From Bacteroides cellulosilyticus (GTDB taxonomy: Bacteria > Bacteroidota > Bacteroidia > Bacteroidales > Bacteroidaceae), in assembly GCF_020091405.1 (NCBI RefSeq), contig NZ_CP081903.1, forward strand, positions 124,001 to 188,000: a stretch of DNA of 64,000 nt. The letters are read 5' to 3'. The position numbers and the translations under genes are program-made. This document shows positions 3,707-29,414 of the stretch, piece by piece. Position 1 is the first letter of the stretch. Each line of letters opens with the position of its first letter. The notes beneath the pieces were generated by a model. The model saw nothing but the letters and a program-made list of their open reading frames with translations, was not told where the DNA came from and did not search any database.

Positions 3707-3728
3707 CATAAGTTTCGGAAGGAATAGT

Positions 3729-3736
3729 TATCTTTG
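3729..3736 (+). promoter_or_regulatory. -7 box for hemW
   Basis: TATCTTTG matches TAnnTTTG and lies about 49 nt before the hemW start, just after the stop of the DUF2264 gene. This suggests hemW is transcribed separately. Confidence 0.5.
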
Positions 3737-3784
3737 CCGCCAAAGTAAGAGCTACGAAAGCTCTTCTACAGAAACAATATAATT

Positions 3785-4915
3785 ATGGCAGGCATCTACA
3801 TACATATCCCCTTCTGCAAGACACGTTGCATTTATTGCGATTTCTATTCCACTACACGTTCGGAATTGAAATCGCAATATATCCGTGCCCTTTGCCGGGA
3901 GTTGACGGAACGCAAGGAATATCTGAAAGGGGAAGCTGTTGAAACCATTTATTTCGGTGGAGGTACACCGTCACAGTTATCGGAGGAAGACTTTAAGGAG
4001 GTTTTCAAAACGATTGAACAGGTTTACGGAACGAGGGAAGCAACAGAAATAACTCTTGAAGCAAATCCCGATGACCTTACGGAAGAATATATCGGAATGT
4101 TGCACACTCTACCGTTCAACCGCATCAGCATGGGAATACAAACTTTTGATGATGCAACACTGCAATTATTGAACAGACGGCACAATGCCACACAAGCCAT
4201 AGAAGCAGTAAAACACTGTCGACAAGCAGGTTTTCAAAATATCAGCATCGATTTAATTTATGGCTTGCCCGGAGAGACCGACCAACGCTGGACACAAGAT
4301 TTACAGCAGGCTGTCAGTCTTGATGTAGAGCATATTTCAGCCTACCATCTGATTTACGAGGAAGGTACACCCCTTTACAAAATGCTGCAACAACACTCGG
4401 TATCTCAAGTGGATGAGGATAGTAGTCTGAACTTCTTCTCCACATTGATAGATACCCTTTCTGCCACCGGATACGAGCATTATGAAATTTCCAACTTTTG
4501 CAAACCGGGAATGTATTCCCGACATAATACTTCTTATTGGCAAGGTATCCCTTATCTAGGATGCGGCCCGTCCGCACATTCCTTTGATGGAGGCTCGCGC
4601 GAATGGAATGTAGCTTCACTAAATCAGTATCTTTCATCAGTAGAACAAGGACAACGCCAACACGAAACAGAACAACTGGACACACGAACCCGCTACAATG
4701 AATACATCATCACAGGTCTGCGCACAATGTGGGGAATATCAACTGAAGAGCTAAAAAAGAAGTTCGGCGACCGACTCTCGAAATATTGTTTGGAACAAGC
4801 CAGATCTTATCTGGAAAATGGGAAATTAGAGTTGCATAACGATCGGTTAAAGCTAACCAGAGAGGGTATTTTCATCTCAGATGGTATCATGAGCGATTTA
4901 TTGATAATAGAATAA
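3785..4915 (+). CDS. hemW: Radical SAM protein HemW (coproporphyrinogen III oxidase-like)
   Basis: A 376-residue cytoplasmic radical SAM enzyme. The cluster motif is C11-K-T-R-C15-I-Y-C18, the CxxxCxxC form, with the usual HemW start (GIYIHIPFC). Further family blocks are YFGGGTPSQL (SAM-binding GGGTP), EANPDDLTEEYIGML, GIQTFDDATLQLLNR, DLIYGLPGETDQRW and HYEISNF. The C-terminal winged-helix segment (RYNEYIITGLRTMWGI) is present, so the gene is full length. HemW is regarded as a heme-binding or heme-trafficking protein rather than a true HemN oxidase; that role comes from family knowledge. It ends in a hairpin shared with the convergent gene. Confidence 0.9.
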   Translation: MAGIYIHIPFCKTRCIYCDFYSTTRSELKSQYIRALCRELTERKEYLKGEAVETIYFGGGTPSQLSEEDFKEVFKTIEQVYGTREATEITLEANPDDLTEEYIGMLHTLPFNRISMGIQTFDDATLQLLNRRHNATQAIEAVKHCRQAGFQNISIDLIYGLPGETDQRWTQDLQQAVSLDVEHISAYHLIYEEGTPLYKMLQQHSVSQVDEDSSLNFFSTLIDTLSATGYEHYEISNFCKPGMYSRHNTSYWQGIPYLGCGPSAHSFDGGSREWNVASLNQYLSSVEQGQRQHETEQLDTRTRYNEYIITGLRTMWGISTEELKKKFGDRLSKYCLEQARSYLENGKLELHNDRLKLTREGIFISDGIMSDLLIIE

Positions 4916-4960
4916 TTGCTTAAAAGCCGCATCCATCACGGATACGGCTTCTAAGCAATT
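4914..4960. terminator. Bidirectional terminator hairpin
   Basis: AATTGCTTA pairs with TAAGCAATT, and the inner AAGCCG...CGGCTT extends the stem with small mismatches. It lies between the convergent hemW and BACON lipoprotein genes. Confidence 0.7.
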
Positions 4961-4987
4961 AATGTAAAAATCACAAACTAAAAATAT

Positions 4988-6016
4988 TTAATCCGTATTT
5001 TCTGTAAAATGAGTTTGCATAACAATGTCAGTAGCAGTACCATAGCCACCCTTATATGTACTATTTGAAGGGGTTCCAGTGAATTTACCATAGTAGAATC
5101 CATCCACATGCTGTTTTGCCCATGTACCATTGTCAGCAAAAACAAAAATCATATTATAATTTTCATCCGTAGCTATAGGAGCAACATATTGTACAGTTGT
5201 TCCCCATCCAAGTGTCCCGGCATTGTCATAAGCACACAGATAAACTTTATATGGAGAAATATCTCCCAGATATTGTCCAAATGAGATAATAAAATAACCT
5301 TCATTATAAGTTGCCAGGAAAGATGCATCCACCGGCATCCCATTCGTCGTCAGTTGATATACATTAGCAATCCCTGTTGATTCAACTTTACAAAGTGCAG
5401 CATATCGCTTACCATTATTTGTATACAGCATATCATAAATACCGTTCAAATTCATTTGTGTAAATTCCGCGGTATACGCCACATTACCATCATCAATAAC
5501 CACCATACTTGTCCTATATCCTCCATCTTGAATAGCGGGCGCGGTAAATATTATCTGATTTTCATCCCTCCGGTAGGTAATCCATTGGGGTACTGTCACT
5601 TTAATATCCCGTTTTGTATCCAAAGAAAAAGCTGCATCTCCTCCTGCCGGCGCAAATGTTACATCTTTCAAGGTACAGATAAAAGTATCACCTAACTGTG
5701 TAACAGGGACCTCTTTCTTTTCATTGGCAGAACGAATAGTAACCATCGTCGTACGACTTGAGATTGAATTGTTCAAATCTACCGATAAGCTAATATCCTG
5801 TCCTGATACAGATATATGACACCATGAATCAGCCGCAGTAGCCTCTACCTCCGAAGTAGCAAGTACTTTAATCAAGCCGGTGCCACCTTTATATGTAAAC
5901 TGGGCTTCTGTACTTATCACAGTCAATTCGGGGCTTTTTACCGCATCATCATCGTCGCTGCACCCTACAACCATTGTGCAAAGTGCCAGAATTAATATAT
6001 TCACTAACTTTCTCAT
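4988..6016 (-). CDS. BACON-domain lipoprotein
   Basis: Last gene of the minus-strand SusC/SusD operon, about 342 residues. I start it at 6016 (MRKLVNIL), not at the in-frame ATG at 6028, because GGAAAG lies 5 nt before 6016. The lipobox is VVGC (Cys19), followed by an Asp run typical of surface-exposed Bacteroides lipoproteins. Residues about 35-110 and 115-190 look like two BACON-type beta-sandwiches: each ends in strands such as MVTIRSANEKKEVPVTQLG and MVVIDDGNVAYTAEFTQ. The C-terminal half is beta-rich and unrecognised. BACON domains are thought to act as spacers or binding modules. Given the neighbours, an accessory outer-membrane substrate-capture role is likely but inferred. Confidence 0.8.
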   Translation of the reverse strand: MRKLVNILILALCTMVVGCSDDDDAVKSPELTVISTEAQFTYKGGTGLIKVLATSEVEATAADSWCHISVSGQDISLSVDLNNSISSRTTMVTIRSANEKKEVPVTQLGDTFICTLKDVTFAPAGGDAAFSLDTKRDIKVTVPQWITYRRDENQIIFTAPAIQDGGYRTSMVVIDDGNVAYTAEFTQMNLNGIYDMLYTNNGKRYAALCKVESTGIANVYQLTTNGMPVDASFLATYNEGYFIISFGQYLGDISPYKVYLCAYDNAGTLGWGTTVQYVAPIATDENYNMIFVFADNGTWAKQHVDGFYYGKFTGTPSNSTYKGGYGTATDIVMQTHFTENTD

Positions 6017-6032
6017 ACAACTTTCCATTTAT

Positions 6033-7313
6033 TTATTTTTTAATCATGCTCAAAGGTCCGGCATATCGGGAAGTTCCCCATTGCTTAAATTCACCGACAT
6101 ACTCATTACCTTTCATTTCCCATACTATGAGTGAATTAACTTCATGATCAGCCCAAACGCCATAACTTTCTAAATCTATTATAATATCCTCCGTATCCAC
6201 TCTTGGTTTACTTGCAACCCCGAGTGCAGTATTTTTAAACAAACTACCGGTATTGGCATCCCAAGCACATAACCATACTTCATTACTGCCGGCATTACCC
6301 ACTTTCTGTGACATAATTCGAATTCCTCCGACACTCTTATCGTAATTCACCAGCAGTTTGTAATTCGGATTAAACCCGACCATCAGGAATGATGTCTGAC
6401 TTTCCTCTTCAAGAATCACCGGTATTCTTCCTCCAGCATATACAAAGTCCCATGATCCCAAAAAATCCTTATACTTCATATATCCCTCCGGCAATTCATT
6501 TGCCGTGAGCTTAACATCGGTGGCTCCCTGATCAGTACAAGTAAACGTTTTAGTCGCACTATCCCACGTGAAGTTTTCCAATGTCTTCCCCATCACTTCT
6601 ATCGGTTCATAGAATTTAATACCGGTAGCAGTGAAAATATATGGCCCCGATACTGACTCAGTCTTCTTACCTTCAGTCTCATAACTGAAAAGAAATACAT
6701 GGTCTTCCATCGGAACGACAAACGTCTTTCCGCCAATACTGGCCGTATATGTGGTTGTAAACGTTTCTTTCGACAACTTAACCGTTTTGTCCAAAAGCGT
6801 CATCGGAGGTTCAGTCAGACGCGTCATTTTTATGACATTATTTGTCTTTTTTCCTCTAAGAATAATTTCATTATCGGTATGCGACCGAAATATAAATTCA
6901 TAATCGCCCTCATACCCTTTACCTTTTCCACCTCCGTCTATGATGTCCGGATCAGAAAAATGATGGAACAATTCATTATATGTATCAAAGTTTAATGTCG
7001 GGCCTATATCTTTTTTCAAGGAATAAAGACTGGTTACTTCTTTTTCAGCCTCCTCAAATGCATCAGTAGATACTGTAACCTGATCACCATCTTTAAATTT
7101 CATAGTAAAAAGATACCCTCCATAGGCTTGGGTAGACGAAGGATAATATTCCATAGCCCACCCATATTCTGCACTTTTCAATAAAGTCTGATACTCAGCC
7201 AATGCTTTCTCTACACGCACCGATGATGGTTCATCAAATACGTCGTCCACATCCTGCACACACGAACTCAGAAGTATGGAGAAAACAAAAAATGTATATA
7301 TTATTTTTTTCAT
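6033..7313 (-). CDS. DUF4302 domain lipoprotein
   Basis: A 426-residue lipoprotein (MKKIIYTFFVFSILLSSC, Cys18). The N-terminal region VEKALAEYQTLLKSAEYGWA, with YPSSTQAYGGYLFTMKF and a following FRSHTDNEIILRGKK, matches the DUF4302 family found next to SusC/SusD pairs and zinc-metallohydrolase lipoproteins. The biochemical function is unknown. It sits 10 bp after the metallohydrolase gene and 16 bp before the BACON gene, clearly in one operon. Its likely place is the outer membrane facing outward, as a partner of the SusC/SusD complex; that is inferred from context. Confidence 0.85.
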   Translation of the reverse strand: MKKIIYTFFVFSILLSSCVQDVDDVFDEPSSVRVEKALAEYQTLLKSAEYGWAMEYYPSSTQAYGGYLFTMKFKDGDQVTVSTDAFEEAEKEVTSLYSLKKDIGPTLNFDTYNELFHHFSDPDIIDGGGKGKGYEGDYEFIFRSHTDNEIILRGKKTNNVIKMTRLTEPPMTLLDKTVKLSKETFTTTYTASIGGKTFVVPMEDHVFLFSYETEGKKTESVSGPYIFTATGIKFYEPIEVMGKTLENFTWDSATKTFTCTDQGATDVKLTANELPEGYMKYKDFLGSWDFVYAGGRIPVILEEESQTSFLMVGFNPNYKLLVNYDKSVGGIRIMSQKVGNAGSNEVWLCAWDANTGSLFKNTALGVASKPRVDTEDIIIDLESYGVWADHEVNSLIVWEMKGNEYVGEFKQWGTSRYAGPLSMIKK

Positions 7314-7323
7314 ATTTTAATTA

Positions 7324-8193
7324 TTAAATATTATCCAAATCGAGTTCACTTATCTCAGCGCAACGCCTGCTAATTACACTACGCAGTTGTTCAATATCGA
7401 TGCTCCAGGATTCTTTCATATACTTCCTTACGATATCCAGTTTCTGGTAAATGATGGCACTCCCTTTATCACCAGCGAGTGCTATTACCTCGTCCCATTG
7501 CTCAGCTGGATAAGTCAGGTAACAGGCTGTTACTTCAGCGATATCTTCACGAGGCTGGCTACCGGCATACGGCGTGACAAATCCCAGTGGAGCAACAGTT
7601 TCAAGACTACGGTTTTGCCATCCTGTAGGCACATAGTTTCCGGCACTGATTTTATCAAACTCTACCGTATATGCCTTCTTTTGATGCAAGATATGCGCAA
7701 ACTCATGGTGCATCACCTTAAAATAATATTCATTCAGCTCGTTCACATTAGTGGGGTCAAGCCAGTTCCCCATATAAAGGGTAACTTTCAATCCGCCTTC
7801 AGCCGTTCCCAAGGTATAAGTTGTTTTGTCCCATGACGCCGAACCAATCAGATGAATCACTTTAGGGGCATTGGCACGTGTAAAGTCAATACCTCCCACT
7901 TCATCATAAACTTCCAGCCAGGCATGTTTCACTATCTTAGCCAGTTTGACACTAAGTTTAAAATCCGTAGGAACCAGATTATGCGAATAGTCAGATTCGA
8001 TATGCTCCATCCTATAGATGAAATCAATATTATAGGTATCCACATAGTTTACTTTCAGCCATTTGTCAAAGGCATTACGTTCTGCCTCCGAAGTATCAAA
8101 AATACTATTATCCTTATCCGGCTCATTGTCGTCACAGGCCGAGAAACCCATTCCGAATATAAGCATCAATATATATATATACCAATTTTTCAT
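7324..8193 (-). CDS. Substrate-import-associated zinc metallohydrolase lipoprotein
   Basis: A 289-residue lipoprotein (MKNWYIYILMLIFGMGFSAC, Cys20). It carries the zinc motif HEFAH (His163, Glu164, His167) followed by ILHQKK, and a downstream acidic segment PREDIAEVTACYL (about 215-225) that may supply the third ligand. This matches the family of putative zinc metallopeptidase lipoproteins linked to TonB importers (TIGR04549-like / Peptidase_Mx1). Its surface or periplasmic position beside SusC/SusD suggests that it trims a peptide or protein ligand before import. Proteolysis is inferred from the motif; the substrate is unknown. It follows the SusD gene by 25 bp. Confidence 0.87.
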   Translation of the reverse strand: MKNWYIYILMLIFGMGFSACDDNEPDKDNSIFDTSEAERNAFDKWLKVNYVDTYNIDFIYRMEHIESDYSHNLVPTDFKLSVKLAKIVKHAWLEVYDEVGGIDFTRANAPKVIHLIGSASWDKTTYTLGTAEGGLKVTLYMGNWLDPTNVNELNEYYFKVMHHEFAHILHQKKAYTVEFDKISAGNYVPTGWQNRSLETVAPLGFVTPYAGSQPREDIAEVTACYLTYPAEQWDEVIALAGDKGSAIIYQKLDIVRKYMKESWSIDIEQLRSVISRRCAEISELDLDNI

Positions 8194-8218
8194 AAATCTT
8201 CGTTTTTTAGCGGTTTAA

Positions 8219-9718
8219 TTATCTGGGATTTCTTTCCATACCGGCTGATACAACTGCTGCCGGTATCTGTATAGCTTTTCTCAAATCGTGAGATTCCAGT
8301 ACAATAGGAGATTCTCCATAAAGTTCACGCGTAATTTTAAGGCCAAAACGCTTGATATCCAGCCACCGTTCACCTTCATGAACTGTTTCTATACGGCGGG
8401 CATGTAACACGGCTTTCAACAGATTGGTCTGCAAGCCCGACTCTATATCAAATTTCGGATTCAACGGCTTTCCGTTTGTTTTTGGATCAACAGTCTTTTC
8501 ATAAAATGTGTTCAGGCTTTCCATATCCGGTATTTGCGCTGCTACTTTAGCTTTACACCAATACTGCAAGTCTCTCACCCCCTTATCATATTGTTTAGCC
8601 AATATATAAGCCTCAGCGCGATTGAGAAGCGTTTTATCACTGGTAAAAGCAAATATCACTTGCCGGTAATAACCGGTGTTCAATACAGCATTGGTAGTTT
8701 CGAATATAGCATCCATTTTCGGAACAAAGATTGACTGATCTCCATATCCCAAAACTTTATCATAAGCCATAAGATGTCCCCATGCCGCAGGCGACCAGAT
8801 GGTTTCCCCTTCGCACAATGTCCGGTTATGCCCATATCTCTGATTGGTATATTGAGTTCCCCACCTTGAAAGTGCCCCTATCAGCATCAGGTTGGCCGGT
8901 TCATCTTTATCAATAAAAGCTAACGTATATTCTTTAGAACTGGGGAACTGACTATATCCGTTCATATTCCGTAATAAACTACCGGGATCTTCGCCAATAG
9001 CCTCCGTAGCATATTTTATTGCCTTCTCATATTGATTGTAGAATAGATTGAACTGAGCTGCAAATGAGTATGCCGCTCTTTTGTTAAAATGATAGAGCGG
9101 AACAGTGTACGCTTCATCACTTATTAAAGGAAGAGCCTCTTCGATGTCTTTATCTATCTTCTCATAAGTCTCTTTTAAAGTTCCTCTTTCATACTTGACG
9201 CCAATAGAAGTTCCCGGAGCGGTCATATAAGGTACACCTAAATCCTTATCGGCATCATTGCCATAAGCCATACAGAAAACATTAGTTAACAAGAAATGTC
9301 CGTAAGCACGACAAATCAGCGCTTCACCCTTATATGGCAACGCTTCTTCCGGCTCACCCAATTCCCGGATGGCAACCAAAGCCTGATTAGCAGCTGCGAT
9401 TATCATATAACACCCATCCCACATATAGCCAGGAGTATCCTGATCAACGTCAGTTATATCTTCCCAACGAAATGACTGTATCATTTTGTTATTCGGCAAG
9501 CTATATTTATCTCCATTATCCTGCCGGTTATCCGACATCATTTCTTCCATCAGTAATGCAGAAGATTTTGGATAAGCCGACACCAAAAGATCTTTTACCT
9601 TTTGCAAAGAATTTACTTCGGCACGCTTGTCAGGCATTGTATCCAGAAAGCCGTCACAAGAAGTGATACTTCCCAAAAGAACAGCCAGCAGAGATATAAT
9701 TATTATTTTTGTTTTCAT
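8219..9718 (-). CDS. SusD/RagB family lipoprotein of the phase-variable operon
   Basis: A 499-residue SusD-like protein with lipobox SITSC (Cys21). Family landmarks are the TPR-like helical region (YKGEALICRAYGHFLLTNVF), FNKRAAYSFAAQFNLFY, and the C-terminal VLHARRIETVHEGERWLDIKR block with a closing IQIPAA. It forms the substrate-binding lid over the SusC barrel. It is only 12 bp downstream of the SusC body, so its expression depends on the same invertible promoter and should be off in the sequenced orientation. The accompanying metallohydrolase suggests a peptide-type ligand rather than a glycan; this is an inference. Confidence 0.93.
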   Translation of the reverse strand: MKTKIIIISLLAVLLGSITSCDGFLDTMPDKRAEVNSLQKVKDLLVSAYPKSSALLMEEMMSDNRQDNGDKYSLPNNKMIQSFRWEDITDVDQDTPGYMWDGCYMIIAAANQALVAIRELGEPEEALPYKGEALICRAYGHFLLTNVFCMAYGNDADKDLGVPYMTAPGTSIGVKYERGTLKETYEKIDKDIEEALPLISDEAYTVPLYHFNKRAAYSFAAQFNLFYNQYEKAIKYATEAIGEDPGSLLRNMNGYSQFPSSKEYTLAFIDKDEPANLMLIGALSRWGTQYTNQRYGHNRTLCEGETIWSPAAWGHLMAYDKVLGYGDQSIFVPKMDAIFETTNAVLNTGYYRQVIFAFTSDKTLLNRAEAYILAKQYDKGVRDLQYWCKAKVAAQIPDMESLNTFYEKTVDPKTNGKPLNPKFDIESGLQTNLLKAVLHARRIETVHEGERWLDIKRFGLKITRELYGESPIVLESHDLRKAIQIPAAVVSAGMERNPR

Positions 9719-9730
9719 AAGTTCTGATAT

Positions 9731-12700
9731 TTAAAATCCTAATCTTAAAGTTAATGTAAATTGCTTGGGCACAGGAGCCGACACACCACCCGAACGGAAA
9801 AATTCAGGATCCTGTCCGTTCAATTTTGAGTCTGCATAAAGCAAAAACAAGTTGGTGGCCTGTAGTTTCACTGAAGCATTGCTGATAGCTGTTCCTTTCA
9901 AAAGAGAGCGTGGGAAATCATAAGAGAGGGACACTTCCTTCAACCGGATAAAATCACCTTTGGCAATGCGAGCAGTTGAATAGTTATAGGCATTGTAACC
10001 ATAATTCAGATTGCCATACTGTTTATTTTCAAATGAGCTGGCTATGACCGGAATATCGGTATACATCTCGTCGCCCGGCAGTCTCCAACGATTCTTAAAA
10101 TCCTTCTGGGTTGCGTCCAAATCACTATAAGAACTCTTGAATGCGGGATCAAGCCGTACTTTATTTCCTGCGGAATAAGTGATGAATACATTCAGACGGA
10201 AGTTCTTATACGTGAAAATATTACCAAAACTACCGGTTATAGTGGGATCTGACGGACCTTCGTATTTCAGGAAATCAACATTCTCCGACTCCTGGAAATT
10301 CAAGGAACCATAATTCTTCTTGGTTATCTTTTTGTCACCAAACATAAAGGTCGGGAATCCATCTTCATCAAGTCCTTCAAATGGAATAGAGAACAATCCT
10401 CTTGAGGGATAGCCTTCGCGTGCAAAACCTACTCCGGCAATAAGAGAAAATACGGTTGAACGGGATTTAAAGTCGGTAACTTCCGTCTTGCTATACCCGA
10501 AAATAAAATCGGTAGACCACTTAAAGTCTTTTGTTTCAATGTTTCTGGTGGATAAAGACGCTTCAAAGCCATGAGATTTCATAGAAGCGACATTGGCATA
10601 ACGCTGAGTCTGCCCTTCCACTCCCTGTGTAGTAGTAATGCCAATCAGATCGTAATTATCACGCTTATACCAAGCCGCTTCCACATTAATCCGGTTATCA
10701 AGAAATCCCATATCCAGACCGATATTCAGCTCATGTTTTTTCTCATAAGTCAAATCAGAATTTTCCAAATCTTCAATTTTCAGCCCCGATTCCGCTACAC
10801 CTGCCGACGGACGCCAGGGGGTATAGCTCTGAATGATTACCAAAGAATTGGATACATTACTCGGACCGACATCCGCCGTTAAACTATAAGAAGCCTTCAG
10901 GGTAAAATGTGATAAAGCAGGTTCTAAATCTTTAAAGAATTCTTCCTCATGCATATTCCATGCGCCCGCAATGTTCCAAGTAGGCAACCAGCGTGCTGAA
11001 CGGGACTTACCCAAGCGATTGGAACCTTCATAACGTCCTGTTCCCGTCAAAGTATAGCGTCCTTTATAAGAATAAGTTGCTGTTCCGAAGAAAGCCACAT
11101 TTCTCTTTTTAGTATTGCTCAAACTATAATAATCGGAGTTACCTTCACGCATTTTCTTAAATGCAAGATAATCAAAAAACGGAATTTCCCCATTGTCATA
11201 TTGCATCCCCCAACCATCAAAGTTGTTACTGGAACGGTCTTGAGCATTTGCTTCCATACCGCCGTATACATTTACGATATGGATGTCTTTGAAAACATCA
11301 TTCCATGACACAGCTGCACGGAAGTCATAACTCAACATCTTATATTGAGTGGTATTATAGAAACCACCCTTAGGAAGAATAGTTACCGGCAATGCATAAG
11401 GATCATCAGGATTTTTATAAAGCCATGAATTACTATTGATAATAGTGGCATCTCCCATAGCACGGTAAGCCAAAGCTTGGTTCGAATTTTCCCGTATCTT
11501 ATGTTCTTGTGAAGTTGAGGAATATTTCAACGCTCCTAAAGCACTGACTTCCAGTTTAGGTAAAATCTTCCATCTCATTTCGCCCTGAAATTTCAGGTCT
11601 ACTACATCCAATGAAATGTTATTTGTATTCAATTCATTGAAGATATTAAAATCCGAATAGTTACGCATATAATAGGTATTGGCGTCCAATGTTCTGGAAG
11701 TGTTCAATGCATAACTATAAGGGTTAATATCAAATCCACGTGTAACCTCACCCCGGACAGCATCCATGCTTTGTCCCAATGTGCCGGGAGCTTCCTGCTT
11801 ACGATAAGATGCATTGGCAATCACATTAAGAGAAAGATTCTTCAGTATGTTATAGCTATTATTCAGATTAGCCGTATAGCGCTGTACTTTGTTTTTAATC
11901 ATCCATCCTGGATCATTCATAGCACTTACCGACACATAAGAGGTTGACTTTTCATTTCCCATTGCATAACTAACAGAATGGTTCATCATAACAGAATTAC
12001 TGAAAAGCATGTCAAACCAGTCGGTATTTCTCATTTCAGCCTCACGTAAATATTCATTCTGTGCCTCAGGCGTGTGAGCAAGTCCAAACTGTCCGTTCGT
12101 TTTGTCATACCAGTTATTCAATTGAAACATTTTGCCGTACACGCCACTATTGGAAGCCCGGTATACACTTGCGAAGTTAAGCCATCCTTTATCTCTCATT
12201 TCCTGATAAATTCCCATCTGATCCTGAGAGTTCATCAAATTAAATTCACGGTAAGAAGGCTTCATTCTCATTGTAAATTCCCCCGTATAGCTTAGTTTGC
12301 TGGTTCCGACTTTACCTCTTTTAGTGGTAACAACAATCACACCAGCCATAGCACGTGCTCCGTAGATAGAAGTAGCCGAACCATCTTTTAGTATCTGGAA
12401 ACTCTCTATATCATCGGCATTTAGCCCGGCTATAGCAGAACTGATCAGAGTCACGGCATCACCCGATGAAAGCTGGTCGGCACTCACCTCCACAACATCA
12501 TCCATAATAACACCATCGACCACCCACAAGGGTTTTGAATTTCCATAGATTGACGTAGCACCACGCACACGGATTTTAGGCGCAGTACCGAATGTACCCG
12601 AAACATTTTGTACCGATACTCCCGCAGAGCGTCCTTCCAAGCCACGACTAATATCAGCTAAACCATCGAGTTTAACATCGGCAGCCGTTAATCTGTCGGC

Positions 12701-12829
12701 AGCACCTGTAAACAAGCGTTTATCAACCTTAGTCATACCTGTAATAACGACCTCATCAAGTACTTCTGCATCAGGCTTCAACAGAACCTTTATCAACCCG
12801 GATTTAATAGGAACTTCTTGTGTTTGCAT
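9731..12829 (-). CDS. SusC-like TonB-dependent transporter, body without its 5' end (phase-OFF)
   Basis: The open frame encodes the SusC plug (VLDEVVITGM, then VRGATSIYGNSKPLWVVDGV and LKDGSATSIYGARAMAGVIV) and a full 22-strand-type barrel ending TLTLRLGF. It lacks the signal peptide and most of the carboxypeptidase-D-like domain. The ATG at 12829 is not a credible start: no leader peptide, no promoter, and the frame continues upstream through the 24-bp repeat (VPSSARTLQISFVG) to 12874, where an in-frame TAG stops it. The missing 72 codons lie inverted at 13329-13544. Joined after inversion, the protein would have 1111 residues. In this orientation the gene is split rather than decayed: no frameshift or stop is seen in the body. 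Confidence 0.93.
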   Translation of the reverse strand: MQTQEVPIKSGLIKVLLKPDAEVLDEVVITGMTKVDKRLFTGAADRLTAADVKLDGLADISRGLEGRSAGVSVQNVSGTFGTAPKIRVRGATSIYGNSKPLWVVDGVIMDDVVEVSADQLSSGDAVTLISSAIAGLNADDIESFQILKDGSATSIYGARAMAGVIVVTTKRGKVGTSKLSYTGEFTMRMKPSYREFNLMNSQDQMGIYQEMRDKGWLNFASVYRASNSGVYGKMFQLNNWYDKTNGQFGLAHTPEAQNEYLREAEMRNTDWFDMLFSNSVMMNHSVSYAMGNEKSTSYVSVSAMNDPGWMIKNKVQRYTANLNNSYNILKNLSLNVIANASYRKQEAPGTLGQSMDAVRGEVTRGFDINPYSYALNTSRTLDANTYYMRNYSDFNIFNELNTNNISLDVVDLKFQGEMRWKILPKLEVSALGALKYSSTSQEHKIRENSNQALAYRAMGDATIINSNSWLYKNPDDPYALPVTILPKGGFYNTTQYKMLSYDFRAAVSWNDVFKDIHIVNVYGGMEANAQDRSSNNFDGWGMQYDNGEIPFFDYLAFKKMREGNSDYYSLSNTKKRNVAFFGTATYSYKGRYTLTGTGRYEGSNRLGKSRSARWLPTWNIAGAWNMHEEEFFKDLEPALSHFTLKASYSLTADVGPSNVSNSLVIIQSYTPWRPSAGVAESGLKIEDLENSDLTYEKKHELNIGLDMGFLDNRINVEAAWYKRDNYDLIGITTTQGVEGQTQRYANVASMKSHGFEASLSTRNIETKDFKWSTDFIFGYSKTEVTDFKSRSTVFSLIAGVGFAREGYPSRGLFSIPFEGLDEDGFPTFMFGDKKITKKNYGSLNFQESENVDFLKYEGPSDPTITGSFGNIFTYKNFRLNVFITYSAGNKVRLDPAFKSSYSDLDATQKDFKNRWRLPGDEMYTDIPVIASSFENKQYGNLNYGYNAYNYSTARIAKGDFIRLKEVSLSYDFPRSLLKGTAISNASVKLQATNLFLLYADSKLNGQDPEFFRSGGVSAPVPKQFTLTLRLGF

Positions 12830-12850
12830 ACCAACAAAAGAAATCTGTAG

Positions 12851-12874
12851 AGTTCTCGCAGAACTTGGAACATT
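12851..12874 (-). repeat. Left 24-bp inverted repeat of the switch
   Basis: Exact reverse complement of 13521-13544. The inner 15 bp (12851-12865) form the dyad AGTTC-N5-GAACT. Both copies lie in the same SusC codons (VPSSART). Confidence 0.97.
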
Positions 12875-13160
12875 CTATTTATAAGGCGTACAGAAAAGCA
12901 GATAAATCTTGTTCCTACATTCTAAATGTGTTTAATTTAGCTGAATAATATTTTTATTAAAATTATATCACGAAATCTATATACCGAAATGCAAAATTAT
13001 TATTTATGATCAAACATAAAATCATTTTGTAAGCTATTACCATATAACGCCAATATACAAACACAATGCCAACACAAATAAACAACATATAACGCAATTG
13101 CATTCTCATTATGAACATTCATCAACCACAACTGTATTTACAAAAAATAACAATAATTAC

Positions 13161-13190
13161 TTTGTACTTAAAAAGATGTGTTTATCTTTG
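13161..13190 (+). promoter_or_regulatory. Promoter inside the invertible segment
   Basis: TTTG at 13161-13164 and TATCTTTG at 13183-13190, spaced by 18 nt, match the Bacteroides -33/-7 consensus. Transcription should start near 13197, giving a leader of about 130 nt before the ATG at 13329. In the sequenced orientation it reads toward the sigma-factor gene; after inversion it would drive the SusC operon. Confidence 0.8.
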
Positions 13191-13215
13191 CAAATTATTA
13201 AAAATACGAATAAAC

Positions 13216-13283
13216 ACGCTATTATATACGCTATTCAAAACGCAATAAAAAAACGCGCGAGTCAATACGCAGAATAATAACGC
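13216..13283 (+). repeat. Six phased ACGC motifs in the SusC leader
   Basis: ACGC occurs at 13216, 13228, 13240, 13253, 13267 and 13280, spaced 12, 12, 13, 14 and 13 nt, within an otherwise very A/T-rich leader. It lies between the promoter and the start codon, so it would be present in the mRNA. Function unknown. Confidence 0.6.
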
Positions 13284-13328
13284 AATCTGATAACCTTGTT
13301 TTAAACTTAAATTCTGAGAGAAGTACTT

Positions 13329-13571
13329 ATGAAAAGAAAATTGATGTTGCTATTGATCTACCTGTTCACAGGGGTAGGTCTACTCAGTGCACAAACATTA
13401 AAAGTGACAGGAGTCGTCATTTTTGAGGAAGACAATGAACCTGTTGTAGGAGCTACCGTATTAATCAAAGGTACAAAAACAGGTATTGTAACTGATTTGG
13501 ATGGTAAATTTACCATTTTAAATGTTCCAAGTTCTGCGAGAACTTATTACATGCTTCAATATATATTCTAA
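13329..13571 (+). CDS. Detached N-terminus of the phase-variable SusC (signal peptide plus carboxypeptidase-D-like domain)
   Basis: An 80-residue frame. It starts with a signal peptide (MKRKLMLLLIYLFTGVGLLS, cleavage after AQ), followed by the N-terminal extension domain of SusC proteins (TLKVTGVVIFEEDNEPVVGA, VLIKGTKTGIVTDLDGKFTI). It stops eight unrelated residues after the repeat (YYMLQYIF). The first 72 residues belong to the SusC encoded at 9731-12874 on the other strand. As sequenced, it would make only a short secreted peptide. This is one half of a phase-variable gene and not an independent gene. Confidence 0.95.
   Translation: MKRKLMLLLIYLFTGVGLLSAQTLKVTGVVIFEEDNEPVVGATVLIKGTKTGIVTDLDGKFTILNVPSSARTYYMLQYIF
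13521..13544 (+). repeat. Right 24-bp inverted repeat of the switch
   Basis: Exact reverse complement of 12851-12874; the dyad AGTTCTGCGAGAACT is at 13530-13544. Confidence 0.97.
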
Positions 13572-13613
13572 AAGACACCATTGCCCAAAATAGGAAATTC
13601 TAAATAAAACCAC

Positions 13614-13621
13614 TACCTTTG
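13614..13621 (+). promoter_or_regulatory. -7 box upstream of the ECF sigma gene
   Basis: TACCTTTG matches TAnnTTTG, 26 nt before the sigma start and outside the invertible segment, so the sigma gene can be transcribed in both orientations. No clear -33 box and no terminator between 13545 and 13646 are visible. Confidence 0.5.
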
Positions 13622-13646
13622 CCCCATAGCTATATGAAACGGCAAT

Positions 13647-14186
13647 ATGACAGAACAGGAAGTCAGAAGGTATCTACGGAAAATGAGCGAGCAGGATTCC
13701 CAAACTGCTTTCCGGGATTTTTATGACATGACGTATGACCGTCTGTTCCGTATCGCTTATTACTACACTCACCACGAAGAATGGTCGCAAGAAATTGTGC
13801 TCGATGTTTTCATGAAACTCTGGGAACACCGTAAGCAACTATTAGAAATTACCAATATCGAAGATTACTGTTTCATACTCGTAAAGAATGCCTCTCTCAA
13901 CTATATAGAAAAAGAGGAGCGCCGCCCCACCCTATCAACAGAAACCCTACAAGAACACTCCGGTCAAGCTGTATCTCCTGAAGATACTCTGATCAGCGAA
14001 GAGCTTTTTGCTCGCTATGTAAAAGCTCTCGACCGACTACCGGAACGTTGCCGTGAAGTCTTTATCCGCATCCGTGAAGAAAAACAAACCTATGCACAAG
14101 TAGCAGAAGAGTTGGGTATCAGTACAAAAACGGTGGATGCGCAATTGCAGAAAGCAACCATTCGATTGAAAGAAATACTGCTCTAA
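13647..14186 (+). CDS. ECF-type RNA polymerase sigma factor (Bacteroidetes FecI-like)
   Basis: A 179-residue sigma-70 family protein with region 2 at about 20-85 (FRDFYDMTYDRLFRIAYYYT, then EIVLDVFMKLWEHRKQL) and region 4 at about 120-175 (LDRLPERCREVFIRIREEK, QVAEELGISTKTVDAQLQKA). Length and order are normal for the family. The cognate anti-sigma (FecR) and the TonB receptor follow, with a small lipoprotein between. Two copies of a candidate promoter for this sigma factor lie at 14585 and 15330, but none was seen upstream of the sigma gene itself. Its 5' side borders the invertible segment, so the outward-facing promoter may raise its transcription when SusC is off (inference). Confidence 0.93.
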   Translation: MTEQEVRRYLRKMSEQDSQTAFRDFYDMTYDRLFRIAYYYTHHEEWSQEIVLDVFMKLWEHRKQLLEITNIEDYCFILVKNASLNYIEKEERRPTLSTETLQEHSGQAVSPEDTLISEELFARYVKALDRLPERCREVFIRIREEKQTYAQVAEELGISTKTVDAQLQKATIRLKEILL

Positions 14187-14250
14187 TAAATAGAGCTTTG
14201 TCAAACAACATTCATCAATCCCCGGTGTTAGTAAACCATCCTCCCGGCAG

Positions 14251-14325
14251 GGCTACACCTTTTCCCCCGGATGGCTACACCCTTTGGAGGCGATGGCTAC
14301 ACCATCCGAAGAAAAGGGTGTAGCC
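14251..14325. repeat. 22-nt (2 x 11) direct repeat GGCTACACC with inverted copy
   Basis: GGCTACACC starts at 14251, 14273 and 14295, exactly 22 nt apart. The inverted AAGGGTGTAGCC at 14314-14325 is the complement of GGCTACACCCTT at 14273-14284, so a hairpin can form. It lies in the 469-bp gap after the sigma gene; the rest of that gap holds the ECF promoter at 14585 and nothing else recognised. Confidence 0.75.
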
Positions 14326-14584
14326 TTGTAAAAGTAGTGCCACAGCTATCTCCTGAGCGGGTACAGACCGATTTTACCATATTCCGCCCCGACATCGTCA
14401 TGTAACATTTTCACACTTCCGGAAGTGCTCATCCCCATGCCTGAAGAACTCAACCCGAAAGGGGCGATGAAGATAGGGGGAAAAAGTATATCTACTTATC
14501 AAAGGACTGGAGGAATGGTACAAAAGGGAATATGCATCCACAGTAATTATCACATGATTAATTAACACTTTTTGTTTCTATTGC

Positions 14585-14616
14585 CATAGGGAGTTTCTTT
14601 TCTGCTCCTGTCTTTA
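14585..14616 (+). promoter_or_regulatory. Candidate ECF-sigma promoter, copy A
   Basis: CATAGGGAGTTT, 10 nt, CCTGTCTTTA. The same two blocks with the same 10-nt spacer occur at 15330-15361. It lies 39 nt before the small lipoprotein gene. The spacers differ, so the two conserved blocks look like -35 and -10 elements of the adjacent sigma factor. Confidence 0.7.
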
Positions 14617-14655
14617 CTCATGAACTATATTAAACTAAACTAAAATTAAAACGAC

Positions 14656-15075
14656 ATGAAAAGATTTTGCAAACAAATGGCAGGAACCGCAGGGCTTCTC
14701 TTCATCCTTGCCGCATGCAGTAACAACAGTTCCAGTTATCCCGAAGAGTATGTAGGTTTTGAGAAAGCCACCAAAAACTATTCGTTCGACAAAAACAAAG
14801 ACACAGAAGAGTTCGACGTAAAGATTATTGCCGCTGAAAAGAAAAATGAGGATAGAGAAGTTCTCATTAATGGCATAAACATGCCGGGTAAAGCAGTTAT
14901 TTTCAGTCTTGAAGACAAGACGGTCATTATCCCTGCCAAGAAGAAATCAGCCAATCTACGAGTGAAGATCTATCCGAAGAGAGTGACAGACAAAGCTGAA
15001 TTCCGCATCGTCTGTACCCCGAAGGATAAAGAAGGCAAAAAGACACAGATCACTATCCATCTAAGTCCACAATAA
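14656..15075 (+). CDS. Small lipoprotein in the sigma/anti-sigma locus
   Basis: A 139-residue lipoprotein (lipobox LAAC, Cys21) followed by SNNSSSYPEEYVGFEKATKN. The rest is a predicted beta-sandwich rich in Lys and Glu, ending RIVCTPKDKEGKKTQITIHL. I do not recognise the family; it loosely resembles small DUF4843- or Calx-beta-like lipoproteins. It has its own candidate ECF promoter and stands between sigma and anti-sigma, so it is probably a regulon member rather than an accidental insertion. It may be a surface partner of the TonB receptor; that is an inference. Confidence 0.75.
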   Translation: MKRFCKQMAGTAGLLFILAACSNNSSSYPEEYVGFEKATKNYSFDKNKDTEEFDVKIIAAEKKNEDREVLINGINMPGKAVIFSLEDKTVIIPAKKKSANLRVKIYPKRVTDKAEFRIVCTPKDKEGKKTQITIHLSPQ

Positions 15076-15108
15076 TCATTTGGCTCATAACGGAAAAGAA
15101 AGGAATTA

Positions 15109-15203
15109 TTTCACCACAGAGGACGCAGAGGACGCAGAGGTTATAATTATCTCTGAACTAGAAGCCTAAAAACTCTGTGAACTCTGCGTCCTCTGTGGTG
15201 AAA
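15109..15203. repeat. Inverted repeat with 9-nt internal repeats (ACAGAGGACGC type)
   Basis: The 22 nt at 15109-15130 are perfectly complementary to 15182-15203. Each arm contains direct CAGAGGACG-like units with a 9-nt period. It follows the small lipoprotein gene and could act as a terminator-like or mRNA-end hairpin. Similar ACAGAGG repeats occur between genes in many bacteria, as I recall. Confidence 0.8.
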
Positions 15204-15329
15204 AGATTCATAACCCGTCAATAATGAACATAATTTGAATTCTGATTCGCATGATTAATACATGTATAGGACTATGATGGAATGATTCTGAAGCGGCTAG
15301 CACTTCTTCTTCAAAAAAAGAAGTTTCGG

Positions 15330-15361
15330 CATAGGGAGTTTTTACGTTTTACCTGTCTTTA
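15330..15361 (+). promoter_or_regulatory. Candidate ECF-sigma promoter, copy B
   Basis: CATAGGGAGTTT, 10 nt, CCTGTCTTTA, identical in both blocks and spacing to 14585-14616. It lies 20 nt before the fecR start, so it would drive fecR, the TonB receptor and the DUF4249 gene. Confidence 0.72.
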
Positions 15362-15381
15362 TAGAAAAGAGGAATAAGAAC

Positions 15382-16254
15382 ATGGAACAAGAATTTGAAA
15401 AAATACTCGATAAACTCGCAACCTCCACCCGTTCGCCGAGAGGAAGATTCTCGAAAGCCAATAGCTGGATACTTCTTGAGAAACGGTTGCCGCATCTGCA
15501 ACGCCGCATCCTTTCATTGCACACAATGGCTGGTGCAGCCGCTGTCGCCGTGCTTTGTGTACTGGGCTGGTGGGCATACTATATGTTCGCCCCAGTACCA
15601 TTGCAAACCGTATCCACATTGGCAGAAACACGTACCGTAACACTGCCCGACCAAACAGAAATTGTACTGAACCGCTATTCTTCTCTGACTTATCCCGAAC
15701 GCTTCAGAGGAAAAGACCGGAAAGTACAGTTACAAGGAGAAGCTTATTTCGAAGTCAGCAAGGATGCAGCACATCCTTTCAAAGTGGAAGCCGGTGCAAT
15801 TATAGTGCAGGTTTTAGGTACACATTTCAATGTCGAAGCCTATCCCAAAGATACGCAAGTGAAAACAACTTTATTGGAAGGTTCCGTTTCTGTCAGCCTC
15901 ATCGGTAAAACAGAAAAGAGTCTGATTCTCTCACCCAATGAAAGCGCTATATATAATAAGGATAAGAAAAGTCTGACCCTACATACCGAAAATAATGCAT
16001 CCGAAGAGATTATCTGGAGAAACGGAACACTGCTTTTCAAAAGCATTCCTTTACAAGAGATTATCCGACAACTTTCTAACGCTTTCCACACAGATATTCG
16101 TATTGAAGACACCGACTTACAGAACTATCGCATGACGGCTACTTTCTCTGATGGCGAAACACTGGAAGATATTCTTTCGCTGCTTTGCCGCAATCAAAAG
16201 TTTGAATACACAAAAACTAATGACATAATAATGATCACACAAAAATTAAACTAG
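15382..16254 (+). CDS. FecR-family anti-sigma factor
   Basis: A 290-residue single-pass inner-membrane protein: a cytoplasmic N-terminus of about 47 residues that should bind the sigma factor, one membrane helix (about 48-69), then a periplasmic FecR domain (TVTLPDQTEIVLNRYSSLTY, VQLQGEAYFEVSKDAAHPF, VLGTHFNVEAY) and a C-terminal DUF4974 segment (FKSIPLQEIIRQLSNAF) resembling an STN fold. In this family it holds the sigma factor until the TonB receptor signals ligand binding. The receptor gene starts 1 bp after its stop, which supports a signalling pair. Confidence 0.93.
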   Translation: MEQEFEKILDKLATSTRSPRGRFSKANSWILLEKRLPHLQRRILSLHTMAGAAAVAVLCVLGWWAYYMFAPVPLQTVSTLAETRTVTLPDQTEIVLNRYSSLTYPERFRGKDRKVQLQGEAYFEVSKDAAHPFKVEAGAIIVQVLGTHFNVEAYPKDTQVKTTLLEGSVSVSLIGKTEKSLILSPNESAIYNKDKKSLTLHTENNASEEIIWRNGTLLFKSIPLQEIIRQLSNAFHTDIRIEDTDLQNYRMTATFSDGETLEDILSLLCRNQKFEYTKTNDIIMITQKLN

Positions 16255-16255
16255 A

Positions 16256-19039
16256 ATGAAATCCTCTATCTGTTCACCCCGCACCATCAGGAAATTTTTC
16301 CTGGTGGGAGCGGTTCTCCTATCAACCTGTACACTACAAAGTACAATCGTATTTGCCACCTGCGTTCTACAGAAGACAAATCCTTCACAAACGCGTTTCA
16401 GCATAAAACTACAAAACGCTACACTGGAAGAGTTCGTGAAACAAGTGGAACAAAAAACCGGGTACAGTTTCATATATGGAGAAGAAGTACGCCTGAATGG
16501 ACGCATCACACTGGCCGTCCGTGACCTTACTATTAACGAAATTCTCCGGAAAGCCTTTGAAAACCAACCGATAGGTTTCGAAGTCTCCGGAAAACATATT
16601 TTGCTAAACAAGCGGCCCGTGCCGCAGAAAACCGTAAGCCGTCGGTTCACTATCAGCGGATATGTGACGGACGGGGTGTCTTCCGAGACACTGATTGGTG
16701 CCAATATCCTCGATAGTCGTCAGCGTGTAGGCACTGCCACCAATCCTTTCGGTTTCTATACTCTTACTTTGCCGGAAGGAGATGCGGATTTAAGTTTTTC
16801 GTATTTAGGGTACGAAACTTGGCACAGTTCGTTCCCGCTGAATAAAGACACCGTGCTCAACGTCCGCCTGGACAGCAATAATGAACTGGCGGAAGTGATA
16901 GTACTTTCGGATAAGAAAGAGGCCGGCATTCAGTCTACTGCTATGGGAGCACATGAAATTCCAATGGCACAGATACAACATACTCCGGCTGTGCTGGGAG
17001 AGGCTGATATATTGAAAACTATTCAGTTAATGCCAGGTGTACAAGCCGGAACGGAAGGCTTTTCCGGTTTATATGTACGTGGCGGAGGACCGGACCAGAA
17101 CCTAATATTGCTGGACGGTATTCCGGTATATAACGCAGATCATCTTCTGGGGGTGTTTTCCGTATTTACTCCCGAAGCTGTAAAAAACACTACACTCTAC
17201 AAGAGTTCCTTTCCCGCCCGTTACGGTGGCCGGCTTTCCTCTATTGTCGATGTACGTACCAACGACGGAGACATGCATCATTACCACGGTGCACTCAGTG
17301 TAGGTACACTTACCGACAAACTGCATTTTGAAGGACCTATCTGGAAAGGACACACCTCTTTCAGTCTTAGTGCACGTGCCACGCACACCGCCTTCTTCAA
17401 AAACCTCATAGTGGATAAAGATGATTATTACGCCGATAAATACAACTACTACTTTTACGACATCAATGCCAAAGTGAACCATAAATTCAATGACCGCAGC
17501 CGCCTCTTCATTGGTTTCTATAAAGGAAAGGACCATTACCACTTTGATACCACTGACAGCAATAACTATCAGAACAACGACGAAGCTAAAGTCTATTATA
17601 AGGATGACAGTCATCTGAACTGGGGAAACACTATCGCCTATGGCCGTTGGAATTACGTATTCAATAGTAAGTTGTTCTGTAACACCACTATTTCCTACAA
17701 TAACTATCTGATGAAATTGAATCAGGATGTGGAAGATACGCGCACCTACCAGGGGCAGATATTAGATCGTTATAGCTATTTATCCCAATTCCGTTCAGGT
17801 ATCAGTGACTGGAGTGCGCGCATGGACTTCGATTTTACACCCGCGCCGGAGCATCACATCAAGTTTGGAGCAGAATATATCCACCATACTTTCCGCCCGG
17901 GCATCTCCACTTCCAAGACTCAGGAAGTGGAAAACGGAGAGCAACAGGAAGAAACAATTTATGCTGCCAGCAATAATCATGTACTACGAGGACAAGAGGT
18001 ATCACTCTATGCTGAAGATAATCTCAACCTGAACAGTCATCTCAGTCTAAATGCCGGTATAAGGGCATCTCTGTTCTCTACACAAGGAAAGAACTACTGT
18101 TCGATTCAACCACGCCTCTCCACACGCTACAACTTTGGACAGGGATTCTCCGCCAAGGCATCCTATACATGTATGGCACAATATGTACACTTACTTTCAT
18201 CCACTCCCTTCTCTATGCCTACGGATCTTTGGGTACCAATTACCAAAAATATACGCCCCATGTATGCCAATCAATACTCTCTAGGAGGCTATTATACAGA
18301 CCTACCTGGCTGGGAGTTCTCTATAGAGGGATATTATAAGCAAATGCGTCACATACTGGAATATCAGGATGGCGTTTCCTTTTTCGGCACTTCCACTAAT
18401 TGGGAGGAAAAGGTAGAAATGGGTGAAGGACGTTCCTTTGGCCTGGAAATGATGGTGCAAAAAACTTTAGGAAAAACTACCGGTTGGCTGGCATATACAC
18501 TGGCAAAGACCGATCACCGTTTCAAAGATGGTGCCATCAGCCAGGGTAAATGGTTTCCTTATAAATATGACCGCCGCCACAGCATCAGTCTGTGTTTGAA
18601 TCATAAATTCAGCGAACGTATCGATGTCGGAGCTTCATGGATATTCAATACCGGGGGATGCATCACAGTGCCTGAACGGGAAACCATTATCATCCGTCCC
18701 GAAGGCAATATAGAATCTGCTCCTTATATTTCCCGGCGCAACAACTATCGCCTGCCAGCCAGTCATCGCCTAAACCTGGGTATCAACTTCAACAAGAAAA
18801 CCAAGCATGGCATACGTACCTGGAACATCAGCCTTTATAATGCCTACAATGCTATGAACCCCAACCTGGTTTACAGCAAATGGGAACAAGGTTACAATCT
18901 GATTTACGATGACTTTTACAACAGCATATATCAGGGAAACGGTGATCAATATAACTCAGAGAAAAAGTCGAAGACTGTTATCAAGAAACTGACTATATTA
19001 CCCTGCATACCCTCTGTGACTTATACCTATAAATTTTAA
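16256..19039 (+). CDS. TonB-dependent receptor with STN signalling domain
   Basis: A 927-residue outer-membrane receptor. After a signal sequence there is an STN domain (about 45-115: FSIKLQNATLEEFVKQVEQK, FIYGEEV, KHILLNKRP), a carboxypeptidase-D-like domain (about 125-205: TISGYVTDGVSSETLIGANI), the plug (about 225-340: LGEADILKTIQLMPGVQAGT, LYVRGGGPDQNLILLDGIPV) and a beta-barrel ending TYTYKF. The STN domain is the part that contacts FecR-type anti-sigma factors. It is not a SusC with a SusD partner; its partner is the DUF4249 lipoprotein 15 bp downstream. The ligand is unknown. Confidence 0.92.
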   Translation: MKSSICSPRTIRKFFLVGAVLLSTCTLQSTIVFATCVLQKTNPSQTRFSIKLQNATLEEFVKQVEQKTGYSFIYGEEVRLNGRITLAVRDLTINEILRKAFENQPIGFEVSGKHILLNKRPVPQKTVSRRFTISGYVTDGVSSETLIGANILDSRQRVGTATNPFGFYTLTLPEGDADLSFSYLGYETWHSSFPLNKDTVLNVRLDSNNELAEVIVLSDKKEAGIQSTAMGAHEIPMAQIQHTPAVLGEADILKTIQLMPGVQAGTEGFSGLYVRGGGPDQNLILLDGIPVYNADHLLGVFSVFTPEAVKNTTLYKSSFPARYGGRLSSIVDVRTNDGDMHHYHGALSVGTLTDKLHFEGPIWKGHTSFSLSARATHTAFFKNLIVDKDDYYADKYNYYFYDINAKVNHKFNDRSRLFIGFYKGKDHYHFDTTDSNNYQNNDEAKVYYKDDSHLNWGNTIAYGRWNYVFNSKLFCNTTISYNNYLMKLNQDVEDTRTYQGQILDRYSYLSQFRSGISDWSARMDFDFTPAPEHHIKFGAEYIHHTFRPGISTSKTQEVENGEQQEETIYAASNNHVLRGQEVSLYAEDNLNLNSHLSLNAGIRASLFSTQGKNYCSIQPRLSTRYNFGQGFSAKASYTCMAQYVHLLSSTPFSMPTDLWVPITKNIRPMYANQYSLGGYYTDLPGWEFSIEGYYKQMRHILEYQDGVSFFGTSTNWEEKVEMGEGRSFGLEMMVQKTLGKTTGWLAYTLAKTDHRFKDGAISQGKWFPYKYDRRHSISLCLNHKFSERIDVGASWIFNTGGCITVPERETIIIRPEGNIESAPYISRRNNYRLPASHRLNLGINFNKKTKHGIRTWNISLYNAYNAMNPNLVYSKWEQGYNLIYDDFYNSIYQGNGDQYNSEKKSKTVIKKLTILPCIPSVTYTYKF

Positions 19040-29221: not shown

Positions 29222-29414
29222 GAAATGCCACACCTCAATAATCCGAATGCCACACCTCAACAGGTGAAATGGCTGGCATTTAGGTTGTTGAGGTGTGGCA
29301 TTCGGATTATTGAGGTGTGGCATTTCGGTTATTCAGCCCTGCGGAACGGATGATGCAATTGAGGCAAACAGATGATGCGTTCGGGGTAAACGGATGATGC
29401 GTTTGAGGTAAACA
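29222..29414. repeat. 11-nt-phased array with a 40-bp perfect inverted repeat
   Basis: The 40 nt at 29222-29261 are exactly complementary to 29287-29326, with a 25-nt loop. Each arm contains AATGCCACACC-type units 22 nt apart. The 11-nt phase continues to the right as three 22-nt direct repeats starting GATGATGC at 29349, 29371 and 29393. It fills most of the 509-bp gap between the Nudix and ATPase genes. No ORF or known element is visible in it. Confidence 0.85.

Follow-up and report, generated by a model that had tools for sequence, protein, structure and literature searches.

A SusC importer gene of Bacteroides cellulosilyticus very probably split by a two-site inverton and captured in the OFF orientation

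In the available portions of the published accounts, Tsr0667 is the SusC/SusD shufflon invertase of Bacteroides fragilis (PMC11852207), and one invertase of this species is credited with three SusC/SusD clusters and nine additional regions as its targets (PMC4747536, PMC11852207). The accessible text on the region EE intergenic shufflon of B. fragilis NCTC 9343 describes inverted repeats around the starts of ragA/susC homologues and a promoter serving alternative genes (PMC5729914). Among Bacteroides invertible promoters, that of the S-layer locus BT1927 is reported, in the part of the source at hand, to be ON in approximately 1 in 1,000 cells in vitro (PMC12548429). Similarly partial texts list SusCD orthologs among invertible loci (PMC12632263) and describe 311 invertible regions, among which those within or close to SusC/SusD loci and upxY genes differ most strongly; the orientation of regions in or near susC/susD is described there as differing between people with and without inflammatory bowel disease (PMC10939037).

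The DNA analyzed here (the window) comprises 64,000 nucleotides of B. cellulosilyticus, positions 124,001 to 188,000 of the forward strand of contig NZ_CP081903.1 (RefSeq assembly GCF_020091405.1; genome G000). From comparison of sequences, the segment at 12851–13544 is very probably a site-specific inverton that is switched in trans by a tyrosine recombinase and holds a phase-variable SusC gene in its OFF state. The features of the locus, in window coordinates, are as follows.

4988..6028, minus strand: BACON-domain protein, 346 aa, at the end of the operon (PF13004)
6033..7313, minus strand: DUF4302/DUF4987 protein, 426 aa (profile match)
7324..8193, minus strand: substrate import-associated zinc metallohydrolase lipoprotein, 289 aa (PF15890, TIGR04549; solved relatives 4l7a, 9urd)
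8219..9718, minus strand: SusD-like lipoprotein, 499 aa (PF14322)
9731..12829, minus strand: SusC/RagA body lacking a signal peptide, 1032 aa as called (TIGR04056, 573.5 bits)
12851..13544, no strand: putative invertible segment, 694 bp, in the OFF orientation here (from the repeats, on-paper inversion and relatives)
12851..12874, minus strand: left inverted repeat, with 15-bp core at 12851–12865, in the SusC codons VPSSART
13161..13190, plus strand: match to a Bacteroides-type promoter, TTTG-N18-TATCTTTG, pointing away from the SusC body
13329..13571, plus strand: start cassette, 80 aa, with a signal peptide and 72 SusC codons, ending in 8 misplaced codons and a stop
13521..13544, plus strand: right inverted repeat, with 15-bp core at 13530–13544, in the VPSSART codons of the start cassette
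13647..14186, plus strand: ECF sigma factor on the OFF side (TIGR02985)

A first-pass annotation, made from the letters of the window, had reported identical 24-bp inverted repeats in the same VPSSART codons of both gene parts; the arms were computed to be 100% complementary, and the codons are seen in both translations. The core it gave, AGTTC-N5-GAACT, is present in both arms as AGTTCTCGCAGAACT, and the core was corrected to this 15-mer. We take AGTTC-N5-GAACT to be the consensus of Tsr-type inversion sites at B. fragilis SusC/SusD loci. Among perfect inverted pairs of at least 16 bp within 3 kb in the window, the 12851/13544 pair alone has a gap above 63 bp, the remaining five being hairpins with gaps of 7–63 bp. 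At a threshold of at least 20 bp within 1.5 kb, three pairs were found (the 12851/13544 pair and two hairpins), compared with 0 in 30 block shuffles. With up to three mismatches allowed, the 24-mer occurs at a single locus of the 6.94-Mb, one-contig genome. The 15-bp site AGTTCTNNNAGAACT, with at most one mismatch, occurs at 24 places in the genome versus 34 for a backward control motif; since single copies of the control motif are likewise found in many genomes, single sites are uninformative, and the only pair of copies closer than 13 kb is the 12851/13544 pair.

The SusC body lacks a signal peptide, as had been noted, although its extent was revised from 9731–12874 to an ORF as called of 9731–12829, with the open frame reaching into the repeat. 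The missing N terminus had been placed on the opposite strand from 13329, where the cassette ORF (13329–13571) does encode a signal peptide and 72 SusC residues, followed by YYMLQYIF and a stop. When 12851–13544 was inverted on paper, the 72 codons joined the body in frame, reproducing the predicted uninterrupted SusC of 1111 residues, and coverage of the CarbopepD_reg_2 profile rose from 45 of 88 positions in the stub to 88 of 88 in the joined protein. The promoter match lies 146 bp upstream of the cassette start codon and in the same direction; the Bacteroides −7 promoter consensus is TAnnTTTG in the available part of the source (PMC4747536).

The target is a SusC/SusD operon by its TIGR04056 and PF14322 matches, and the five-gene extent proposed earlier was upheld by profiles for each gene, in the order SusC, SusD, TIGR04549 (PF15890) zinc metallohydrolase lipoprotein, DUF4302 and BACON (PF13004). 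The best solved-structure matches of the SusC were 8ypu and 8ypt, and a literature look-up on 8YPT found no paper. Zero matches among solved structures were obtained for the DUF4302 and BACON proteins, and the comparison of the operon proteins with solved structures gave no nameable substrate. An Rfam scan of 9000–17000 gave zero matches.

We propose that a tyrosine recombinase acting in trans would pair the two 15-bp sites (AGTTCT-CGC-AGAACT) and flip the DNA between them. In the ON orientation, the promoter and first 72 codons would be joined in frame to the SusC body and the five-gene SusCD import operon would be made; in the OFF orientation, seen here, the same promoter would yield only the 80-residue stub, leaving the body without that promoter and signal peptide. 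The likely enzyme would be an L042-type recombinase (see below), encoded next to a SusC shufflon whose start cassette is related. We infer that flipping takes place in this strain and that expression would follow orientation.

Intragenic invertons, reportedly described by Chanin in 2024, carry a repeat inside a coding sequence, so that inversion alters the ORF. The window resembles them in both respects and differs in that each repeat lies in codons of one gene half and that one of its two states encodes a full-length member of a known protein family. With the Tsr0667 shufflon, in the accessible descriptions of that system, the window has in common SusC/SusD operons switched by DNA inversion and the site motif as taken above. 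It differs in having one SusC and two sites, a plain ON/OFF arrangement, whereas the Tsr0667 system chooses among several bodies and a SusC shufflon proper has at least three sites. Its candidate recombinase is also 2.7 Mb away. In region EE, according to the available text, alternative genes are brought to the promoter (PMC5729914), whereas in the window the start cassette would turn and the single body stay. Like the invertible promoters represented by BT1927 in the part of that source at hand (PMC12548429), the promoter match of the window is flanked by inverted repeats, but here the first 72 codons would move with it. The promoter-only form occurs at the same locus in G057 (L064) and in another B. 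cellulosilyticus genome, G042 (L066), where the inversion sites lie in the leader ahead of the start codon.

A DNA search was run across 149 genomes of the genus, and 20 loci were hand-picked from the matches, mostly at places with two nearby matches. Sites in the same codons were found in the OFF arrangement at 10 loci (the window, L063, L070 twice, L071, the second of L072, L074, L077, L078 and L079) and in the ON arrangement at three (the first of L072, L075 and L076). The first-pass reading of a phase-variable importer in its OFF state is thereby extended to other Bacteroides, in which both orientations of this arrangement are seen, with conserved site pairs. The remaining picked loci include L080, which begins at a contig end; L065, L067, L068 and L069, with distant SusC genes only; L081, with a SusC body and with start cassette and motif absent from the 16 kb fetched; and L082, with a 1194-aa SusC and no motif. 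The complete ON-form protein P0141 is 99.9% identical over 1032 aa to the OFF body of L071 and 98.8% identical to the first L070 body, so closely related alleles occur in nature in both states. At L072 (G001:C48:3000-22900), one start cassette lies between two divergent SusC bodies (2072–8874), and flipping there would choose one importer over the other rather than switch one off.

The ON orientation of the window's exact allele was not found in any genome searched, including the 149 genus genomes. Among the best 120 of 6665 protein matches, no ON-form protein exceeded 87% body identity to the window allele, and the closest complete protein had 87% identity over 558 body residues and 85% over the full body. 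The comparison with related genomes suggested by the first-pass annotation thus recovered the opposite orientation for related alleles (the first of L072, L075, L076 and P0141) and not for that of the window. This outcome, and the same OFF form in G047, would be expected of a fixed relic, in which a single past inversion would have left the segment locked OFF and the SusC dead. Some members of the family do seem to have become locked: arms differ at L079, L075 and L076, and L073 has a full-length SusC with a single site left and a broken L042-type recombinase adjoining it. Among the ON loci, the arms of the first of L072 are perfect, whereas those of L075 differ at 2 positions and those of L076 at 1, so the latter two may be locked. 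In the window, however, the arms are still perfect over 24 bp, the genome has an unbroken L042-type gene, and the body ORF is intact, as it is in 10 of 10 OFF loci. Between the window and G047 bodies, 96 synonymous and 4 non-synonymous codon changes were counted among 1033 codons, so the body is under purifying selection; a fixed relic is very improbable.

G047 (B. stercorirosoris) also bears on a second alternative raised at first pass, an assembly error or chimera, since inverted repeats can in general mislead assemblers. Repeats of 24 bp are short for misassembly, G000 is a single contig, and the arrangement recurs in independent assemblies; because G047, assembled independently, has the same split with a SusC body 99.6% identical, this explanation is hardly credible.

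The site family is common to several SusC loci of the genus, with at least 16 close pairs (<2.5 kb) of the 15-bp site in at least 11 genomes, and the central triplets match in all 16 pairs listed. Twelve of these were fetched as new loci. Counting all loci of both fetches minus seven from G000, plus the window, identical central triplets were found in 20/20 exact site pairs (window included), across many different triplets. With one mismatch allowed, 27/27 pairs agreed in the central triplet, and the five pairs with differing arms differed in the outer halves. Three scrambled motifs gave 0 pairs at the same loci. Because these loci were selected for motif or gene family and include close relatives, the triplet test is not genome-wide. 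In most pairs, the resemblance of the flanks outside the 15-mer is loose. A check of the newly fetched pairs other than L100, L102 and L105 confirmed a SusC no more than 2 kb away for 8 of the 12, and the L104 pair lies at a truncated TonB-receptor start beside a transposase. Tyrosine recombinases in general exchange strands across a short centre that needs matched sequence, and the matching central triplets fit this rule, by analogy. The DNA fetched around the 12 other close pairs (about 10 kb to either side; one side for L097) contains no tyrosine recombinase.

The search for Tsr-type recombinases recommended at first pass yielded 26 genes with the PF00589 profile in G000, of which one, L042, is a candidate linked to the start cassette. 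A comparison of 20 of the 26 with NCBIfam brought up no Tsr name.

G000:C1:2820604-2821794: L042, tyrosine recombinase, 397 aa, 2.7 Mb from the segment, with arm-binding, SAM-like and catalytic domains

An L042-type recombinase is probably the enzyme of the window inverton. L042 is divergent from an adjoining SusC in 22/22 loci (L107, L073 and L114–L133), and the first 72 residues of these SusC proteins are 62–74% identical to the window cassette. These are 22 of 27 L042 matches, those left out being the second G123 copy and the matches in G106, G092, G095 and G034. The same codons (mostly VPSSAKT) of the linked SusC genes bear a related site, taken per locus as the 15-mer with most copies, and a further copy with at most one mismatch lies approximately 2–10 kb away in 20 of the 22 loci (L126 and L073 being without). 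The right half of the sites beside L042 is looser, with AATACA or AAAACA in place of AGAACT. Of the 19 SusC bodies compared (those of L118, L124 and L127 are cut by a contig end), 18 are unrelated to the window body and one (L073) is of its family. At L107 (G000:C1:2811000-2830900), a site lies within the complete SusC, and inverted copies precede two other bodies that start MQTQEV, as the window's body does; at least three sites there serve alternative SusC bodies, and from its layout L107 is read as a three-body SusC shufflon with its own recombinase inside. The L107 and window sites have the central GCG in common, so exchange between the two loci would be possible in principle.

The distribution of L042 was compared in 31 hand-picked genomes, counted irrespective of kinship: 15 contain a close pair of sites (exact, or with one mismatch in the case of G057), and the other 16 are nearly complete genomes from which the exact motif is absent. 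The family is present in 15/15 of the former, with one match each and two in G123 (B. fragilis, in which the family thus occurs too); in G132 (B. neonati) the close site pair is present and the L042 copy is broken. Among the 16 zero-motif genomes, L042 is missing in 5, broken in 2 and unbroken in 9, and in two of these nine (L116 and L125) one-mismatch sites lie beside the L042-type gene. The phyletic link of L042 with the sites is weak, because 11/16 zero-motif genomes also carry an L042-type gene, which is present in 26/31 genomes overall. The L042 protein is 100% identical in B. oleiciplenus YIT 12058, within surrounding DNA of 2.5 kb that is 88.9% identical.

The same switch could instead be worked by another recombinase (L054-type, XerC/D or a mobile-element integrase), an alternative that concerns the enzyme only and overlaps the explanation preferred here. 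The genome offers 26 PF00589 genes, and L054 at ≥50% identity occurs in 12/15 site-bearing versus 5/16 other genomes. L054 and its kin, however, adjoin a different motif, TTAC...GTAA, L057 and L062 fail to track the sites, and among the families examined, which cover a minority of the 26 genes, linkage to the start cassette was found for L042 only; we consider another enzyme possible and rather unlikely. As individual candidates, L057 was rejected since outside G000 it passes 50% identity in just three genomes, G086, G131 and G106, all without the exact motif; L054 since it tracks the sites only partly and adjoins TTAC...GTAA-type repeats; and L062 since its distribution is patchy. For the 195-aa pair L043/L044, one protein among the matches listed in a name search bears a general recombinase name. 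Local repeats of the TTAC...GTAA type adjoin L047, L048, L049, L054, L057 and L059, and yet other repeats adjoin L056, L058 and L061. These nine recombinases beside repeat pairs of other motifs (L108–L113 and L054, L056, L058, L061) mark further likely invertons.

On the OFF side, the sigma gene begins 76 bp past the 80-codon stub, and a scan of the plus strand of 12700–14700, which takes in the stretch between cassette and sigma gene, gave no terminator-like site. In 4/4 genomes with an inverton at this locus (G000, G047, G057 and G042), the cassette or promoter points towards the sigma gene. The OFF-state promoter might read through the stub and raise expression of the ECF sigma/FecR/TonB-receptor region, so that cells would choose between two import programmes; we regard this as a doubtful extension of the ON/OFF reading. 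OFF-side neighbours at the other loci examined are varied, with a sigma gene at L095 only. In G086, a different SusC operon occupies the locus and the sigma gene is kept with 61 bp of upstream sequence, so the sigma gene probably has its own promoter.

Related genomes carry different SusC operons beside the sigma gene. The SusC proteins at this locus in G057 and G042 are approximately 67–68% identical to that of the window, and in both genomes the sigma-side homology starts inside the repeat, with 96–97% identity between G057 and the window from 13528 on. Between G047 and the window, DNA identity is 95–99% over most of the SusC body, 66% in the non-coding 13001–13250 and about 80–85% on the sigma side. 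The likely explanation is that whole importer cassettes have been exchanged here; in B. fragilis, SusC shufflons are described in the available text as replaced by chromosomal transfer (PMC5729914).

Other repeats were seen in the window. The hairpin region at 14249–14325, past the sigma gene, has many scattered short matches (mostly 50–100 bases) in B. oleiciplenus and B. cellulosilyticus and, on these matches, is a dispersed intergenic repeat. A CACAGAG-type hairpin lies at 15078–15234, between the lipoprotein gene at 14656 and fecR, and a similar repeat occurs in L108. At 29222–29326 there is a 41-bp perfect hairpin with a 23-bp loop and AATGCCACACCTCAA twice per arm.

The locus appears, by analogy, to belong to the SusC shufflon system that Tsr0667 represents in B. 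fragilis, as a satellite with one SusC. To that system it adds a clean one-gene case and a candidate trans-acting enzyme in 26 of the 31 genus genomes, and one type of start cassette would serve both shufflons and single invertons. For annotation, a 1032-aa SusC without a signal peptide may be an OFF allele and not a pseudogene. SusCD importers decide the diet of gut Bacteroides.
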